Below, in pieces: positions 12,756-20,901 of a DNA stretch of 64,000 nt. The position numbers and the translations under genes are program-made. Position 1 is the first letter of the stretch, and each line of letters begins with the position of its first letter. Location: contig NZ_RKIC01000010.1 in NCBI RefSeq assembly GCF_003755185.1, positions 124,001-188,000 on the forward strand, given 5' to 3'. The notes beneath the pieces were generated by a model. It did no database searches. It saw nothing but the letters and a program-made list of their open reading frames with translations, and was not told the DNA's origin. This DNA is from Frigoribacterium sp. PhB24 (lineage in GTDB: Bacteria > Actinomycetota > Actinomycetes > Actinomycetales > Microbacteriaceae).

Positions 12756-12942
12756 CGTTCCCCCGGCCCCTCTGCCGGACGGAGTCATCCTCGGCCAGAG
12801 ACTGGAGGACGTCTGAGGGTGCTGCGGATCGTCCTCGGTGCGACCGTCCTCGCCTGGGGCATCATCCGCACCCGGAGGTCCGCGGCGGTGTGGTTGCCCG
12901 TCGTCGCCGACCCCCGGTGTCGGTGCCGCCCCCGGTGTCGGT

Positions 12943-13029
12943 GCCGGCAATTCCGAGCTGGTGCTGCGGCGGGGTGACGGGATCGGCGTGGGACGGGCGC
13001 TCCGGCGTCAGGAGCCAGGATTTGCCGAC
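12943..13029. repeat. Intergenic palindromic repeat, copy 1 (87 bp)
   Basis: Begins GCCGGCAATTCC and ends AGGATTTGCCGAC, so the ends are imperfect inverted repeats. The interior (CTGGTGCTGCGGCGGGGT, then GGGATCGGCGTGGGACGGG) matches copy 2 over the same 87-base length at roughly 80% by eye. It sits in the 325-base gap between the lipoprotein and DUF4166 genes, where no gene is supported. Confidence 0.75.
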
Positions 13030-14476: not shown

Positions 14477-15106
14477 ATGGACGAGAGCTTCGAGACGGTC
14501 CGCGTCGCGTTCGGGGCCGCGGCGCGGTGGTTCGCCGAGACGGTGCACGAGCTCGATCGGGCACCGGTCCGGTGGGATGACCCGGCCCTCGGCGAGTGGA
14601 GCCTCCGCGACCTCGTCGGCCACACGTCGCGGGCCCTGTCGACGGTCGAAGAGTACCTGCGGCCCGGGTCGACGGAGTCCGACCGCCGGACCGTCGACTA
14701 CTACCGGGCCGTCCGGGGCGGACGCGCCGACCCGGACGAGGTCGCAGAGAGGGGCCGGCGGGCGGGACGGGACCTTGGCGTCGACCTGCCCGAGAGCGTC
14801 GACGTCCTCGTGCGACGGGTGACCGGCGTGGTGGCCGGCCGGTCCGCGGACGCGCGGGTGGAGACCCCGGTGGGCGCGTGGCGACTCGAGGCGTACCTGC
14901 CCACGCGGGTCGTCGAGCTCGTCGTCCACACGGGCGACCTGCGGACGGCCGGCGGGCTCGACGGGCAGTGTCCCGAGGTCGCGAGCCGTCGGGCGCTGGT
15001 CGTGCTCGGCGCGCTCGTGGCCGATGCTCCGTCGGATGACGCGCCGCGCCTCCTGACGGCCCTGACGGGGCGCTCGGCGCTCGCCGCCGGGTTCACGGTG
15101 CTGTGA
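14477..15106 (+). CDS. Mycothiol-dependent maleylpyruvate isomerase-like (DinB-fold) protein
   Basis: 209 residues. The four-helix MDMPI N-terminal/DinB fold is indicated by AARWFAETVHELD, GEWSLRDLVGHTSRALSTVEEYL and RVVELVVHTGDLRTA: the His residues in TVHELD, VGHTS and VVHTGDL are the expected three metal ligands. Family members are metal-dependent mycothiol S-transferases or isomerases, and mycothiol is an actinobacterial thiol, so this also supports the taxonomic placement. Substrate unknown. The start is fixed by the leaderless -10 box at 14465. Confidence 0.85.
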   Translation: MDESFETVRVAFGAAARWFAETVHELDRAPVRWDDPALGEWSLRDLVGHTSRALSTVEEYLRPGSTESDRRTVDYYRAVRGGRADPDEVAERGRRAGRDLGVDLPESVDVLVRRVTGVVAGRSADARVETPVGAWRLEAYLPTRVVELVVHTGDLRTAGGLDGQCPEVASRRALVVLGALVADAPSDDAPRLLTALTGRSALAAGFTVL

Positions 15107-15183
15107 CGCGGACGCCACACCTGCCGTCGGACGGCGGCCCCGCCGTCTCGAGCGTCGGCCTCGGGAGCGGGTTCGGCCTCGGG

Positions 15184-15270
15184 GCCGGCAATTCAGGGCT
15201 GGTGCCGCGCCGGGGTCCCGGGATCGGTGCGGGACGGGTGCGGCCGCAGCAGGAACCAGGACTTGCCGAC
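15184..15270. repeat. Intergenic palindromic repeat, copy 2 (87 bp)
   Basis: Begins GCCGGCAATTC and ends GGACTTGCCGAC; same length and internal order as copy 1 (CTGGTGCCGCGCCGGGGT, GGGATCGGTGCGGGACGGG, AGCAGGAACCAGG). It lies between the MDMPI-like gene and the proline iminopeptidase gene. Confidence 0.75.
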
Positions 15271-15324
15271 GGGACGACGCCCGCCGCCGCGCGGGGCTCG
15301 TCGTGCTCGCGGTGGGCTGGTGAC

Positions 15325-15330
15325 TACCGT
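15325..15330 (+). promoter_or_regulatory. Leaderless-type -10 box (TACCGT)
   Basis: TACCGT six bases before the ATG at 15337 of the proline iminopeptidase gene. Confidence 0.55.
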
Positions 15331-15336
15331 GGCCGC

Positions 15337-16290
15337 ATGACCTACCCGCCGCACGACCCGTACCGGACGGGCTCCGTCGAGACGACCGACCGCGCCTCGC
15401 TGTACGTCGAGGAGTCCGGGCGCCCGGACGGAGTCCCTGCCCTCTGGTTGCACGGCGGACCCGGCGGCTCGCTCGGTCGGGGAGGCTACCGACGGGCGTT
15501 CGACCCGCGGGCGTACCGGTTGGTCGGCATCGACCAGCGCGGTACGGGGCGCAGCACCCCGAGCGTCGCCGGCGACCCGGCCGGCCTCGAGCGGCACACC
15601 ACGCAGCGGCTCGTCGCCGACCTCGAGGAGGTGCGTGACCGGCTCGGCATCGAGAGCTGGGTTGTCGGCGGGGTGTCGTGGGGCACGACGCTCGCGCTCG
15701 CCTACGGCGAGGAGCACCCGGACCGCGTCCGAGCCCTGGCGCTCAAGGCGGTCACGACCACGAGTCGGGACGAGGTCGACTGGATCACCGAGGGGGGGGT
15801 CGGACGGCTCTTCCCCGAGGAGTGGGCCGTGTTCGACCGCGAGAGCAGGAGGCGCGACGACGAGAGGCCCGTCGACGCGTACGCGAGACGGCTGGCTTCC
15901 GACGACGCGGCCGACCGTGAGGCCGCCGCGGCGAGCTGGGACAGGTGGGAGGGCGTCCACGTGAGCCTCGACGACCCGGACTCCCGAGGGCGGGGACACC
16001 TCGGCCCCGGGCGGCGGGAGGCGTTCGCGACGCTCGTCACCCGGTACTGGAGCAACGACGGCTTCCTGTCGGGCGAGCGGTCGGTCATGGCACGGCTGCC
16101 CCGCATCGGGCACATCCCCGGCGCGCTCGTCCACGGTCGACGAGACGTGAGCGGGCCGGCGGTCACGCCGTGGCGTCTGCACCGGGCCTGGCCGGCGAGC
16201 ACCCTCACCGTCGTCGAGGACGAGGGGCACGGCGGCCCGGGTCAGGTCGAGGCGCTCGGCTCGGCACTAGACGTATTCGCGCGGCGGTGA
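15337..16290 (+). CDS. pip: Proline iminopeptidase (S33 alpha/beta-hydrolase)
   Basis: 317 residues, the normal length. It removes N-terminal proline from peptides. HGGPGG (39-44) is the S33 oxyanion signature, GGVSWGTTLAL carries the nucleophile Ser (about 114), GRRDVSGP the acid and DEGHGGPG the His near the C-terminus. No signal peptide, cytosolic. Oddity: the last 25 or so bases turn less G+C-rich (CACTAGACGTATTCGCG) and the low-G+C insert begins right after the stop, so the insertion junction may lie inside the 3' end of this gene. The catalytic residues are all upstream of that. Confidence 0.92.
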   Translation: MTYPPHDPYRTGSVETTDRASLYVEESGRPDGVPALWLHGGPGGSLGRGGYRRAFDPRAYRLVGIDQRGTGRSTPSVAGDPAGLERHTTQRLVADLEEVRDRLGIESWVVGGVSWGTTLALAYGEEHPDRVRALALKAVTTTSRDEVDWITEGGVGRLFPEEWAVFDRESRRRDDERPVDAYARRLASDDAADREAAAASWDRWEGVHVSLDDPDSRGRGHLGPGRREAFATLVTRYWSNDGFLSGERSVMARLPRIGHIPGALVHGRRDVSGPAVTPWRLHRAWPASTLTVVEDEGHGGPGQVEALGSALDVFARR

Positions 16291-16337
16291 TCAAGGTTGC
16301 TCTATGCGTTATCGCTGCGCTCACCTAAGGAGGTCGG

Positions 16338-19300
16338 CTAAACGAACTCAAGCCCCTGCCGAACGAGGTGCGGAATCGTCACAACTTCCAGATCTGCGGC
16401 CGGGACAAGCTCAATGAGCCAGGTATCCTCCGCGGCCTTGACGACGTCAGGGATTTTTGCTCCTGCCACCCTGAGAAGAACCACATTGCTCGAATGACGT
16501 TTTGCCGAGTGCAACGCTCGATCAGGATCGGTTGTCATGTGAACAAACTGTCGATCCATCGATCTGAGACCGGCACGAGCTTCGAAGATCGATGGCAGAT
16601 TGCCGATAGCAGTGGCATGAAACAACCACTCTGGGGGAGTTGGGCGTTCGTAGTCGGAACGACGATTAACGGAGTGGCCGTAGGAGGCGCGAATTTCCTG
16701 GCCGTCGAGTTCAAACCTCGGCTCCCCTAGAGCGCCCGCTACAACGAGTAGCTGTTCCGGTGTGACACCCCGGTGGCCATGTGCCTTGAGAGCGTCAGCT
16801 AAGTCTTCCGCGAACATCCATCCTCCCACTGCTGTTTTGGCACTCGTGTCGTGGCGGAGATGATATGACATCGCCTTGCTTATTCGCACGCGATCATTTG
16901 GCTGAATGCTCTTAAGCCGCGTGGGGTCCGAAAGTCCGGTTTTCACCGCCCAGGCAGAGAGTATTTTGTTGGCCCAAGCGCCCAACGGCTTCGAGGTCTC
17001 CGACCCAGCGAGACCGGCCAACAGGCGGTACGCGTGATCTCTAGTCGCTGACGTCGATCGTGCATCTGTGAGCAATCCAACAGAACGAGCCGCCGTACTT
17101 GCTCGATAAGCCTCGAAGTGCACTTCTTGAGTGTCAAGACCAAGGGAATTTAGGTAAATTCCGAGAATTTGGTCCCGAGTCTCCCAATCCGCCGGGTCGA
17201 TGACAGGCGCGTCGTCAACGAGTTGAGCGAGTTCGTATGTCAGGGGTCTTAGCCCGATGGATTCAAGGTCAGCGGCCAAGACTCGCTGATCATCATTAAC
17301 AAGCCAGTTCAATGTGTGGGCATCCCGTCTTGGAAAATCTGGCATCTCCTCGATGATGCCCCACCATTCGTTGAATAGAGAGCCCTTATCGTTACCAGCA
17401 AGCTTTCTAAGCCACCTACCTAGCTCTCGGTCCTTTATAACTCTGCGGGCCGTAGGGCCACTTCTAATCTCGGCGTGTTCCCAACCATGTATTAGTCCCA
17501 AGAAGCGGGATGTTTGGCGGAGTAGTTCGATTGGTTCGCTACCAGGCTCACCCAGCGCTTGGCGAAGTGTGCGTCCTCGCGCATACCGGCGGACGCTGAT
17601 TAGGTCGCCCGCTTCGTTCTCGTTCCCGACAACTAGGGAACTAATGTGTTCGATAACGCCGAAATGCGGTGAAACTCCAAGGTCTGCAAGTCGACCGCTG
17701 AGATTCTTTGCACGCTTAGAGTCTCGAAGTAGCGCTTCAGGCGAAGTTCTTTTGAAGACGAACGTTTGGCCAGTAATGCCAGAAAAATCATCCACCGTAT
17801 AGGCCTTGCCGCGACCGCCCAGACCGCTCATTCGTAAAGCTGGGTTGTTTATGGCGTTCTTTGCTGCCTGCGCAAAAACAGCGGTTTCGTCGCCAGATCG
17901 TATTGCGGCGACCAGGGCTGGGTTGCCCCGAAGAGTGGCACCGTTATAACGTCCTGAGGTTTCGATGTTATTGGCGAGGAGTACCAGAGGCTCACTGCTC
18001 GTTGGATTCAAGTGGTGTTGGCGAAGGAGAATGTCGATGCCAGCTGCCCTGTGACCCGCATGCTGCGTCATTTCGGCCAATAAGAGCAGGTCCTGAGCTT
18101 GTGCGAGCTTATCCCGCACCCCACCTAGTGCTCGTTTAGTTCCGATAGGCTCCCGTAGTCGCACGGCATCCTGGAGTAGTTCGATAGCTTTAGTCTTGCT
18201 GCTTGACCGTGCGATTCTCGATTCCAGTTCCGCCAGATACTCGCGGTATTGATACTGGCCCCTCTCGGCTGACTTTCGAAGGATCTCCATAAGAGCGTCA
18301 GAGGCATATTCGATGGTGGGCGGCAGGGCCCTGGATGTTCTTAGAGTAAACGGCAGGCGGACGTTCCTCAAGGGCAGTTCCTTATGAGGATGCTCCAGAA
18401 TGAAATCATGAAGAGCTATGAGCATCAGGCATCGAATTTCATGGGCCAGCTCAAGGGACTGGAGTTCAACCGTTCTCAGCGAGTCCCTGGCTCTTGCCAA
18501 GAACTGTTTTCTTGCACTGTCGGAAGCATGATCGGCCAGGTTGAGCCATATCTCCGCGGTGTTTAGGTGCCAACTGGGCCATTCATTTGATGGCACAAAA
18601 CGCGCCTGTGTATATCTTGCCGCCTCGCGCAGCGTCTCAACTTCACCGGTGGCATGGTATATTTCCAACGATGCTTCAATCCTCAGGGCTGCTGACCGGT
18701 AGTCCCTATCGTCGTGACTTGCTGAGGCTTCCAGATGTTCAAGGGCCGATCGCAATCGGTCGACATCTGGAGTCGAGAAGCGCGCAGCTGTGACTACCTG
18801 TCTACCGATCTCGCGCCCAAGGCGAATTGGCGTTCTCTGGGCGGGTGCAGTCTGGGTGTGTGGCCAGAGTGTCTCGTACGCGGCCAGAGTCAATTCAGCA
18901 GCGCGCACCAAAATGACCGGTTCGTGGAATGGAATGGTCCCAGCATGATCTCTCAAGGCTCGTGCGGTTAACCATCTTGCCTCCACAATTTCGGCCCCGT
19001 AACTCGATCCGGAGGACCTTAGATACGACCCAATCTCCGCGCCCGCCGTAGAAAGTTTGGCTTCTACGATTAGTGCGGCAAACGCCGGAAGATCAGTCGA
19101 TCGTAATTGAAACCAACTGTCTGTAATCGCGGCGGGGCTGGCGTCGTCGGATAGCCAAAGCCGAACTACCTCAAGTCCGTGCAGATCGACCCAGTTTTCG
19201 AGCTGCTCGTCTATCCGAATCCCAACTACTTTGGCGGTGCGGCAGACGGCCTCAAAGTTGGCCTGAGCCTGTAAAGCGAGATCCGTGAACGCCGTTTCCG

Positions 19301-19346
19301 GCCGTACTGCATAGAAGGCAGCAACCTGACCAGGATTTGGCTTCAT
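16338..19346 (-). CDS. Helical region + kinase-like domain + Tpt1/KptA RNA 2'-phosphotransferase fusion
   Basis: 1002 residues, in a clearly A+T-richer segment (line 17401-17460 is 33/60 G+C, against about 73% around it). Residues 1-500 are helical, partly TPR-like, unassigned. Residues about 505-745 look like a protein/aminoglycoside kinase fold: GLGGRGKAYTV (Gly-rich loop), FVFKRT (Lys532), RRDAHTLNWLV (Asp675, Asn680) and AADLES (Asp693). Residues about 819-990 are Tpt1/KptA: MSYHLRHD (Arg831-His832), EIRASYGHS (Arg886), WLFHAT, FVHMTTD, AKRHSSNVVLL (Arg950), that is, the full catalytic tetrad. Tpt1 moves an internal RNA 2'-phosphate to NAD+. The ATG is coupled by an ATGA overlap to a 26-codon ORF. 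The combined function is unknown; RNA repair or a conflict system is inference. Confidence 0.85.
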   Translation of the reverse strand: MKPNPGQVAAFYAVRPETAFTDLALQAQANFEAVCRTAKVVGIRIDEQLENWVDLHGLEVVRLWLSDDASPAAITDSWFQLRSTDLPAFAALIVEAKLSTAGAEIGSYLRSSGSSYGAEIVEARWLTARALRDHAGTIPFHEPVILVRAAELTLAAYETLWPHTQTAPAQRTPIRLGREIGRQVVTAARFSTPDVDRLRSALEHLEASASHDDRDYRSAALRIEASLEIYHATGEVETLREAARYTQARFVPSNEWPSWHLNTAEIWLNLADHASDSARKQFLARARDSLRTVELQSLELAHEIRCLMLIALHDFILEHPHKELPLRNVRLPFTLRTSRALPPTIEYASDALMEILRKSAERGQYQYREYLAELESRIARSSSKTKAIELLQDAVRLREPIGTKRALGGVRDKLAQAQDLLLLAEMTQHAGHRAAGIDILLRQHHLNPTSSEPLVLLANNIETSGRYNGATLRGNPALVAAIRSGDETAVFAQAAKNAINNPALRMSGLGGRGKAYTVDDFSGITGQTFVFKRTSPEALLRDSKRAKNLSGRLADLGVSPHFGVIEHISSLVVGNENEAGDLISVRRYARGRTLRQALGEPGSEPIELLRQTSRFLGLIHGWEHAEIRSGPTARRVIKDRELGRWLRKLAGNDKGSLFNEWWGIIEEMPDFPRRDAHTLNWLVNDDQRVLAADLESIGLRPLTYELAQLVDDAPVIDPADWETRDQILGIYLNSLGLDTQEVHFEAYRASTAARSVGLLTDARSTSATRDHAYRLLAGLAGSETSKPLGAWANKILSAWAVKTGLSDPTRLKSIQPNDRVRISKAMSYHLRHDTSAKTAVGGWMFAEDLADALKAHGHRGVTPEQLLVVAGALGEPRFELDGQEIRASYGHSVNRRSDYERPTPPEWLFHATAIGNLPSIFEARAGLRSMDRQFVHMTTDPDRALHSAKRHSSNVVLLRVAGAKIPDVVKAAEDTWLIELVPAADLEVVTIPHLVRQGLEFV

Positions 19347-19423
19347 CGACGTGGGCCGCCCTTACTCGAGCGCACACACTGTCGTTCGGGGCCTACAACT
19401 CGTTCGCGGACGTGCGTCTTCAT
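19343..19423 (-). CDS. 26-residue leader ORF overlapping the KptA-fusion start
   Basis: ATG at 19421-19423 with GGGAAGAAG just upstream; the frame ends in a TGA that overlaps the ATG of the fusion gene (ATGA). The peptide is basic (begins MKTHVRERVVG). The fusion gene itself has no good ribosome binding site, so translation is probably coupled through this ORF. A GATAAT-like -10 (minus strand, 19472-19477) lies about 50 bases upstream. It could be a regulatory leader or only a coupling device. Confidence 0.5.
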   Translation of the reverse strand: MKTHVRERVVGPERQCVRSSKGGPRR

Positions 19424-19626
19424 TGACTTCTTCCCTGGCGTTTGGACTGAGACAAGTCTGCAACCCTAAGTATTATCTGGGTCCTCGGATTCGGCGGTCC
19501 AGCGCAATCTTCTGAGTAGGTGGTGACGCTGATGTGTAGCGCCCATGATGACACGGCTCCGCGCCTAATGACGCGAAAGATGGCACGGGCTCGCGTGTAC
19601 CCGATACTGAACACGTCACGGGCGAG

Positions 19627-19941
19627 GTGGACGGGGCGGGGCGGGCTGTTCGACGTCGCCTGCGCGAGAGTACGTGCCCTGCTTGCGGGCACGCGTGGGA
19701 GGAACACCCGGGTGGTCGTGACGGAGCCGGCGAGGTCTGCGACGAGTGCGAGTACGAGCGGGACTACGAGGAGGTGCCGGTTTATCGTGCGCCGTGTCGG
19801 CTGACGGTCCCCGATGCGTTGCTCGCGCGTCTCACCCCAAGGGAGAGGGATTGGGCGAGGCCCCTGTCACGTGGACTCGGAGACCGCATCGGGAGGGGCC
19901 TGGCGCACATGGTGGACGCCGTGATCAACGCGTGGCCCTGA
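19627..19941 (+). pseudogene. Zinc-ribbon protein fragment, probably 5'-truncated
   Basis: The frame carries a convincing two-knuckle zinc ribbon, CPACGHAWEEH ... VCDECEYERDYE, followed by a folded-looking C-terminus (VPDALLARLTPRERDWARPL). Upstream the frame is open for another 75 bases but has no ATG and no ribosome binding site; GTG at 19627 is the only start offered. Base composition rises from the low-G+C insert to the genome average within this ORF, so its 5' end may have been lost when the insert arrived. A short functional gene remains possible. Confidence 0.4.
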
Positions 19942-20060
19942 GTGGCATTGTGACTGCTGGGGTCAGCCCTCGCGCACGCAGCCGCCGTCGGCCGCGTCGC
20001 GACCGGGGCGCAGGCCGGGGTCCTCGACGACCCGTGCTCGGTGTCAATGTCGGTGTCGGT

Positions 20061-20147
20061 GTCGGCAATGCCGGGTCGGTGCTGCGGCGGGGTGCCGGGA
20101 TCGCCGTGGGAGGGGAGCAACCGCGACGAGGGTCAGGATTGGACCAC
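20061..20147. repeat. Intergenic palindromic repeat, copy 3 (87 bp, degenerate right end)
   Basis: Begins GTCGGCAATGCCGGGTCGG and contains GTGCTGCGGCGGGGTGCCGGG and GGTCAGGATTGGACCAC, aligned with copies 1 and 2 at the same length. The right terminal TTGCCGAC has decayed to TTGGACCAC. It lies in the 432-base gap 19942-20373, which holds no supported gene. Confidence 0.65.
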
Positions 20148-20373
20148 GGGTTGACGCCGCAGCAGCGCGAGGAGAGCCCGGCTCGGGGTGCGGGCGTGGG
20201 GTGCGATCACCGCGATGCTGGTCGCGGCTTGAACTGCGTCTGGCCTGTCGCCTGCGTCTGCTCTTCGACCCTGGGGCCTCGCTCGTCGCCTGATCCGGTC
20301 CGCAACGGATCAGGCTGGTGAACACATGGCGGGTCGCATCCTCGGCGGGACCGCAGGGCCTGTCCTGCACGCA

Positions 20374-20901
20374 TCAACGGCCCGACGAGTCGTCGATCCG
20401 CTGGAACAGCACGTGGTCCTGCCAGCGGCCTGCGATCTCGAGGTAGGACGGGGCGATACCGTACTGCTCGAAACCGGCCTTCCGAAGGACTCGTTGCGAG
20501 GCGAGGTTGTGGCGGAGCGTCCCGGCCTGGACGCGGTGCAGACCCGCTTCACCGAACGCCCAGTCGACGGCCTCGTCGACGGCCGACGTCATGATGCCCC
20601 GCCCGTTGCGGTCCTCCGACAGCCAGTAGCCCAGGTCGCAGGACCGGAACGGGCCCCGGGCGATCCCGCTGAGGGTCAGCCGGCCCACCACAGCACCCTC
20701 GTCGACGATGTCGAACGGCTGCGCCTCGCCCCGTGACCGTTGCGCCAGCAGCGACGAGATCACCGACAGCTGCCCCTCGGGCGTGAAGAAGGCGTCGCCG
20801 CGCACGGGGTCCAAGGGGGCCAGGAACTCACGATTGCGCGTCAACGTTCGTGCCAGCTCGGGGGCGTCTCGCGGGTCGATCAGGCGCAGGTGGGAGGACA
20901 C
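20374..20901 (-). CDS. GNAT acetyltransferase (RimJ/RimL type)
   Basis: 175 residues. Acetyl-CoA-dependent N-acetyltransferase. It shows the RimJ-like order: LRLIDPRDAPELARTL, VGRLTLSGIARGPFRSCDLGYWLSEDRNGRGIMTSAV (motif A, with the pyrophosphate-binding R/Q-x-x-G-x-G/A turn as RNGRG), and HRVQAGTLRHNLASQRVLRKAGF (motif B). Substrate (ribosomal protein, antibiotic or other amine) cannot be told. The GTG start at 20899-20901 is fixed by TAGCGT six bases upstream. Confidence 0.9.
   Translation of the reverse strand: MSSHLRLIDPRDAPELARTLTRNREFLAPLDPVRGDAFFTPEGQLSVISSLLAQRSRGEAQPFDIVDEGAVVGRLTLSGIARGPFRSCDLGYWLSEDRNGRGIMTSAVDEAVDWAFGEAGLHRVQAGTLRHNLASQRVLRKAGFEQYGIAPSYLEIAGRWQDHVLFQRIDDSSGR

Follow-up and report, generated by a model that had tools for sequence, protein, structure and literature searches.

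The gene at positions 16338–19346 (minus strand, start at 19346) of a 64,000-nucleotide stretch of Frigoribacterium sp. PhB24 DNA – contig NZ_RKIC01000010.1, positions 124,001 to 188,000, hereafter the window – is a single intact open reading frame (ORF) encoding a 1002-residue protein in which a long N-terminal region is followed by a kinase domain and by a Tpt1/KptA RNA 2′-phosphotransferase domain. Eight further fusions of this kind are present in other genomes, and the protein is, judging from sequence, a promising candidate for a defence protein not described so far: it is probably a mobile one-gene conflict protein, most likely directed against phages. A preliminary description, made from the DNA letters alone, had proposed a kinase-like domain and a complete Tpt1/KptA domain in one reading frame, and Pfam searches and a fold model confirm it. 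A chance join of two genes is ruled out because nine proteins have the fusion, with its catalytic residues kept. The architecture had been thought undescribed, and no description was found in open-licence PMC full text (subscription papers and preprints lie outside this scope); PADLOC likewise returned no family for the window protein at E ≤ 10.

The Tpt1/KptA domain occupies residues 818–984 (16395–16895; all protein features lie on the minus strand). PF01885 covers residues 818–957 with E 6.9e-19 (69 bits against a cut-off of 26) and is significant in seven of seven members tested, and solved Tpt1/KptA chains align to residues 818–982 with E 7e-21. The gene is the sole PF01885 match in its own 3.46-Mb genome; its best score against the NCBIfam RNA 2′-phosphotransferase equivalogs is 107.8 bits, under the curated cut-off of 231. 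CthTpt1 has its tetrad at Arg18, His19, Arg68 and Arg121 and an HGT-type NAD motif that includes His101; its Arg139 is positioned over the ADP-ribose phosphate (PMC6333775). Arg831-His832 (16851–16856) and Arg886 (16689–16691) correspond to Arg18-His19 and Arg68, and an HGT-type motif is present as His910-Ala-Thr912 (16611–16619), with His in all nine fusions and Thr in seven, replaced by Ala in genome G658 and by Ser in G714. Arg932 and Arg950 are located at +22 and +40 from His910, as against +20 for Arg121 and +38 for Arg139 in CthTpt1, and a two-residue insert relative to the solved chains accounts for the offset; the tetrad is therefore Arg831-His832-Arg886-Arg932. Its first three members had been named correctly in the preliminary description, but the fourth had been given as Arg950 (16497–16499), which by spacing is the NAD-phosphate arch residue equivalent to Arg139, and is replaced here by Arg932 (16551–16553). 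All five residues are invariant in the nine fusions, and the domain looks active.

The kinase domain (residues ~496–770; 17037–17861) is predicted to adopt a bilobal APH/choline-kinase fold, and structure comparison of the model gives small-molecule kinases, including aminoglycoside phosphotransferases, as the best matches. Pfam APH (PF01636) matches the relative in G247 above its cut-off and that in G457 below it, with no match to the window protein. Conservation could be counted over ten sequences, namely the nine fusions and the G849 protein, which has the kinase without KptA. The Gly-rich loop L-G-G-R (residues 509–512; 17811–17822) has L509, G510 and G511 in all ten and R512 in nine; Lys532 (17751–17753), by position the ATP-phosphate lysine, and Asp693 of D-L-E (17268–17270), by position a metal-binding Asp, are universal. 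In the catalytic loop R-D-A-H-x-x-N-W (residues 674–681; 17304–17327), which includes Asp675, His677 and Asn680, residues D675, A676, H677, N680 and W681 are kept in 10/10 and R674 in nine, with K in G714. Across the nine fusions GGR, K532, D675, H677, N680 and D693 are invariant. The residues originally picked out as a kinase segment thus fall in a predicted APH-type fold and are conserved, and the kinase, too, looks active.

The N-terminal region (residues 1–490; 17877–19346) is the fastest evolving part of the protein, with nonsynonymous divergence (dN) of 0.7–0.9 as against about 0.4 in KptA over four pairs; only dN was compared, and no dN/dS ratio is claimed because dS is saturated in most pairs. 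It had been described as about 500 helical residues. A region of ~490 residues is indeed present, but its helical character is weakly characterised, through a match of ~80 residues to the designed helical-repeat chain 5cwj (E 1.9e-4). Profile self-comparison detected no internal repeat, and a TPR identity was rejected, there being no Pfam TPR, self-repeat or motif match. Such fast evolution might fit a sensor, and the region is a possible sensor or binding module.

The search for proteins containing both domains, proposed along with the preliminary description, yielded the eight further fusions, and their neighbourhoods were scanned. Five of the nine fusions are in the window's taxonomic family, one is in each of three other families, and one is in Cryobacterium sp. 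M96, so that eight come from four families of one phylum, plus the named Cryobacterium. Identity to the window protein is 17–41% in the N-terminal region (measured over only 192 residues for G658), 24–41% in the kinase and 31–57% in KptA. Among 396 genomes of the phylum the protein matched 22: its own, G247, with both domains at 28% identity over residues 482–989, and 20 with matches to residues 748 or later only. Eight of 150 family genomes matched: its own, G457 with a full-length relative (35% identity over residues 2–991), five with KptA only, and G505, whose weak match to residues 454–524 only, in a frame that we take to be YebC-like, was treated as chance. The kinase profile gave strong matches in five of 398 family genomes (own, G457, G722, G658 and G714) and matches in 22 of 394 class genomes, six of them strong, adding G951, G1002 and G849; in a named genome collection it found Cryobacterium sp. 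M96, where the whole window protein found nothing. No fusion was added by the kinase profile among 297 genomes of the order, or by the G247 protein among 66 genomes of its class. Weaker kinase-profile matches in 16 of the 22 class genomes and three of the six matching order genomes, in open frames of 257–564 residues, were set aside and look like other APH proteins. Two weak matches in frames of ~1050 residues (G682 and G639; 978 and 946 residues examined) were counted as chance because they contain no D-x-H-x-x-N loop and no KptA-profile match. Plasmid and phage records matching the window protein number 49 and 50, but in no record does a single place account for 80% of the query, and among the matches listed (20 of 49 and 30 of 50) coverage is from residue 767 onward only; similarly, the G247 protein matches 46 plasmid records, of which the 40 listed cover residues 752 onward. 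The G849 protein (locus L104, 9478–13041) has the N-terminal region and the kinase but ends in LRHDDI at the position where KptA would start; no KptA match under E 0.05 lies in the vicinity, and the protein may reflect secondary loss. In the G658 copy (L052, around 11135) the reading frame is interrupted where the N-terminal part meets the remainder, reflecting either a sequencing error or a defective gene.

Of 34 KptA domains placed in a tree, nine are fused and 25 stand-alone; a branch with support 86/78 sets the fused ones apart, and their group recurs in 86% of bootstrap trees. The distribution requires one change, and 0/500 shuffles were as low. The tree omits G849, which lacks KptA, three sequences with internal stops (L018, L022, L039), two that are partial or weak (L025, L026), and L028–L030, L032 and L034, which are the same genes again, and it includes L038 only up to its stop (108 residues). 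Long branches lead to the fusions G247 and G714 and to L036. A second KptA of G247, which stands alone, falls in another part of the tree. We have moderate confidence, from these sequences, in a single origin of the fused KptA domains. Six other KptA domains (L005, L010, L012, L015, L037 and L040) end stop-to-stop frames of 317–613 residues, which are either fusions or long frames.

The gene lies alone in a low-G+C island (16291–19540, right edge approximate) of about 55% G+C in 73% surroundings. Its G+C content is under that of the flanks in 10/10 loci, by 17–19 points in the window and G457 and by only about 1–3 points in G714 and G722. It is missing from this site in all four same-genus genomes examined. 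In G817 and G800 the left flank is equivalent up to 16290 and the match resumes near 20191; ~0.8 kb of other DNA separates the two flanks, and genes may be exchanged at this spot. In G819 and G816 the flank match stops near 15273 and resumes near 20040–20051. By eye, the ~0.8-kb intervening DNA (L075, L076) looks like a hydrolase-type gene. The family search with the kinase profile found the kinase in 0/9 other same-genus genomes, and its occurrence across the family is patchy. A plasmid match was sought for the DNA left of the island, and none was found. With its foreign composition, the gene is predicted to be horizontally mobile. A dispersed G+C-rich repeat of ~100 bp is present at 12900–13029, 15160–15270 and 20020–20141, the two copies flanking the island being 77–82% identical to the first; several copies occur in G816 and G819, and the repeat search listed none in 14800–20700.

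Defence and mobile-element genes accompany several of the relatives. The fusion gene of G722 is followed, 32 bp downstream, by the start of a type IIG restriction enzyme (PADLOC E 2e-264), with a TrwC relaxase at 1.3 kb and an integrase at 4.6 kb; across eight genomes the type IIG family gave 3.3e-264 in G722 and no stronger than 1.7e-20 in the other seven, with some match in 5/8. In G951 a mad8-like gene on the same strand lies 1.2 kb upstream, with mad7-, mad6-, mad5- and mad2-like genes before it, and the mad7 family was found in one of nine genomes searched. G714 has a type II restriction enzyme and a C5 methylase 3.5–6.7 kb away, the methylase belonging to a family common in these genomes (7/8), and G457 an MkoC-like helicase at 1.7 kb, which is weaker evidence because the match is partial. 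MADS and Mokosh (Mko) we take, from PADLOC naming and general knowledge, to be anti-phage systems. The Cryobacterium copy has a TrwC relaxase at 0.9 kb and a resolvase at 6.7 kb, the G1002 copy a pentapeptide protein and a transposase, and the G849 gene a DUF433/DUF5615 pair. Among 855 mechanically listed ORFs lying up to 5 kb from the ten genes, no conserved partner was found at E ≤ 1e-5, the sole cross-locus match being the relaxase common to G722 and Cryobacterium; the protein therefore probably acts alone. The conflict role suggested in the preliminary description has thus gained evidence from the relatives' neighbourhoods, but not from those of the window copy itself, which are ordinary.

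The simplest reason for placing a kinase and Tpt1 in one chain would be a shared phosphate that the kinase makes and Tpt1 uses with NAD+, and the defence surroundings of some relatives suggest an outcome harmful to the infected cell or to the invader. In the scheme that we infer – substrate, order of reactions, trigger, outcome and activity alike – the N-terminal region would receive a signal or bind a target, the APH-type kinase would use ATP to phosphorylate a hydroxyl, most likely one on RNA such as tRNA, and the Tpt1 domain would engage this phosphate with NAD+, leaving either phospho-ADP-ribosylated RNA or, together with ADP-ribose cyclic phosphate, a restored hydroxyl. In both cases RNA could be blocked, or ATP and NAD+ depleted, in the course of infection. 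That the two domains act on one phosphate is a close call, just short of even, and the conflict role and shared phosphate taken jointly, as stated, make a doubtful though serious proposal. Abortive infection driven by the simultaneous loss of two cofactors is improbable; if true, it would supply the kinase partner that has long been sought for bacterial Tpt1.

Several points weigh against this proposal. Domains can be fused without sharing a substrate, regulation being as easy to imagine; the G849 protein implies that the kinase may have a function of its own; the kinase's catalytic loop is unlike that of the tRNA kinase ArkI; and small-molecule kinases, as the best fold matches, speak for a small molecule or a protein as substrate no less than for RNA. 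The neighbours scanned were chosen rather than exhaustive, with no random-locus control. Those of the window gene (ten ORFs by Pfam, four of them without a family, and one by PADLOC) include a hydrolase, MDMPI-type, acetyltransferase and DUF805 proteins, among others. In G951 the mad8 match is confined to the C-terminal part of an 1814-residue protein, and the mad2- and mad5-like proteins match restriction–modification methylase and specificity models better than mad models. The one neighbour scanned in G247 gave no match, and of two in G658 one gave partial PDC-M37B and DolB matches (PADLOC), which were not counted. No viral contig or phage record in the scans has the fusion.

Regulation is the basis of one alternative, in which the kinase phosphorylates a protein or itself and so switches a Tpt1 effector that ADP-ribosylates or dephosphorylates nucleic-acid ends, with no shared substrate; we regard such a regulated ADP-ribosyltransferase (ART) as unlikely, given that no separate target or partner gene is conserved and that there is no phosphosite evidence. 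Quite unlikely, in our estimation, is a role in RNA repair or tolerance of counter-attack, the kinase healing cleaved tRNA ends and Tpt1 clearing 2′-phosphates, so that the cell is protected from tRNA-cutting toxins: the kinase is APH-like, whereas classical 5′-OH polynucleotide kinases are P-loop enzymes, and no RNA ligase, 2H or Macro family is present among the Pfam-scanned neighbours, nor any conserved partner. The mobile-element context would nonetheless fit repair, and comparative genomics has placed KptA in NAD-dependent RNA repair (PMC9503650).

The fold matches, which include aminoglycoside phosphotransferases, would suit detoxification of a drug or metabolite, with the kinase phosphorylating a small molecule and Tpt1 ADP-ribosylating it or removing the phosphate. 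However, the RNA-phosphate-binding KptA tetrad is fully kept, and we presume that a ~490-residue N-terminal region and restriction or MADS neighbours are atypical of resistance genes; we consider this very unlikely. A housekeeping or neutral fusion with no part in conflict seems more improbable still: although the window, G247 and G658 copies have no clear defence neighbour as far as scanned, the gene is patchy (strong in 5/398 family genomes, 0/9 others of the genus), low in G+C in 10/10 loci, absent from the site in same-genus genomes, and repeatedly next to defence or mobile genes. The mobile conflict protein remains the reading that we favour.

If a defence role is true, it would add a one-gene kinase–ART type to bacterial immunity, with a likely new use of NAD+. 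Like the NAD+-consuming effectors of phage defence (TIR, ART and others), the fusion places an ART-superfamily domain in a defence context, but the excerpt of PMC9503650 describes no Tpt1–kinase pairing among them, and no PADLOC model matches the fusion. A KptA domain with a second catalytic domain is also present in Bodo saltans virus, although there the partner is a Nudix domain rather than a kinase and the protein is viral (PMC9503650). Stand-alone Tpt1/KptA proteins (PF01885) share the family, tetrad and NAD motif residues with the fused domain, but their solved chains are ~180–200 residues long and the fused domains form their own tree group; the APH/choline/homoserine kinases (PF01636) share the predicted fold and catalytic residues, but not a position between a long N-terminal region and Tpt1, and the window sequence on its own is under Pfam detection.

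The association bears on bacterial Tpt1 in general, for which the excerpt of PMC6333775 gives no reported phenotype of an E. coli KptA deletion and an unknown bacterial substrate, and in which Shuman's group suggested, as one possible source of the substrate, a kinase that targets an internal 2′-OH. A kinase and Tpt1 in one chain hint at where the phosphate comes from and make the substrate question directly testable. The closest parallel is archaeal ArkI, which phosphorylates the 2′-position of tRNA U47 reversibly with KptA as the eraser; ArkI has bacterial homologues, which were active, and where ArkI occurs tRNA Up47 is a candidate substrate of bacterial KptA (PMC9095486). ArkI and KptA thus pair a bilobal kinase with KptA on one RNA phosphate, as proposed for the fusion, but ArkI is a separate gene, is similar to eukaryotic protein kinases and has HGQ in place of HRD (PMC9095486). 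Membership of the ArkI family was rejected because the catalytic motif differs, being R-D-A-H-x-x-N in 9/10 sequences and K-D-A-H in G714; ArkI is not named among the 50 fold matches listed, which does not exclude similarity. Relative to ArkI, the fusion is a single chain with an APH-like kinase, an R-D-A-H-x-x-N loop, a large N-terminal region and, in some relatives, a defence-island setting.

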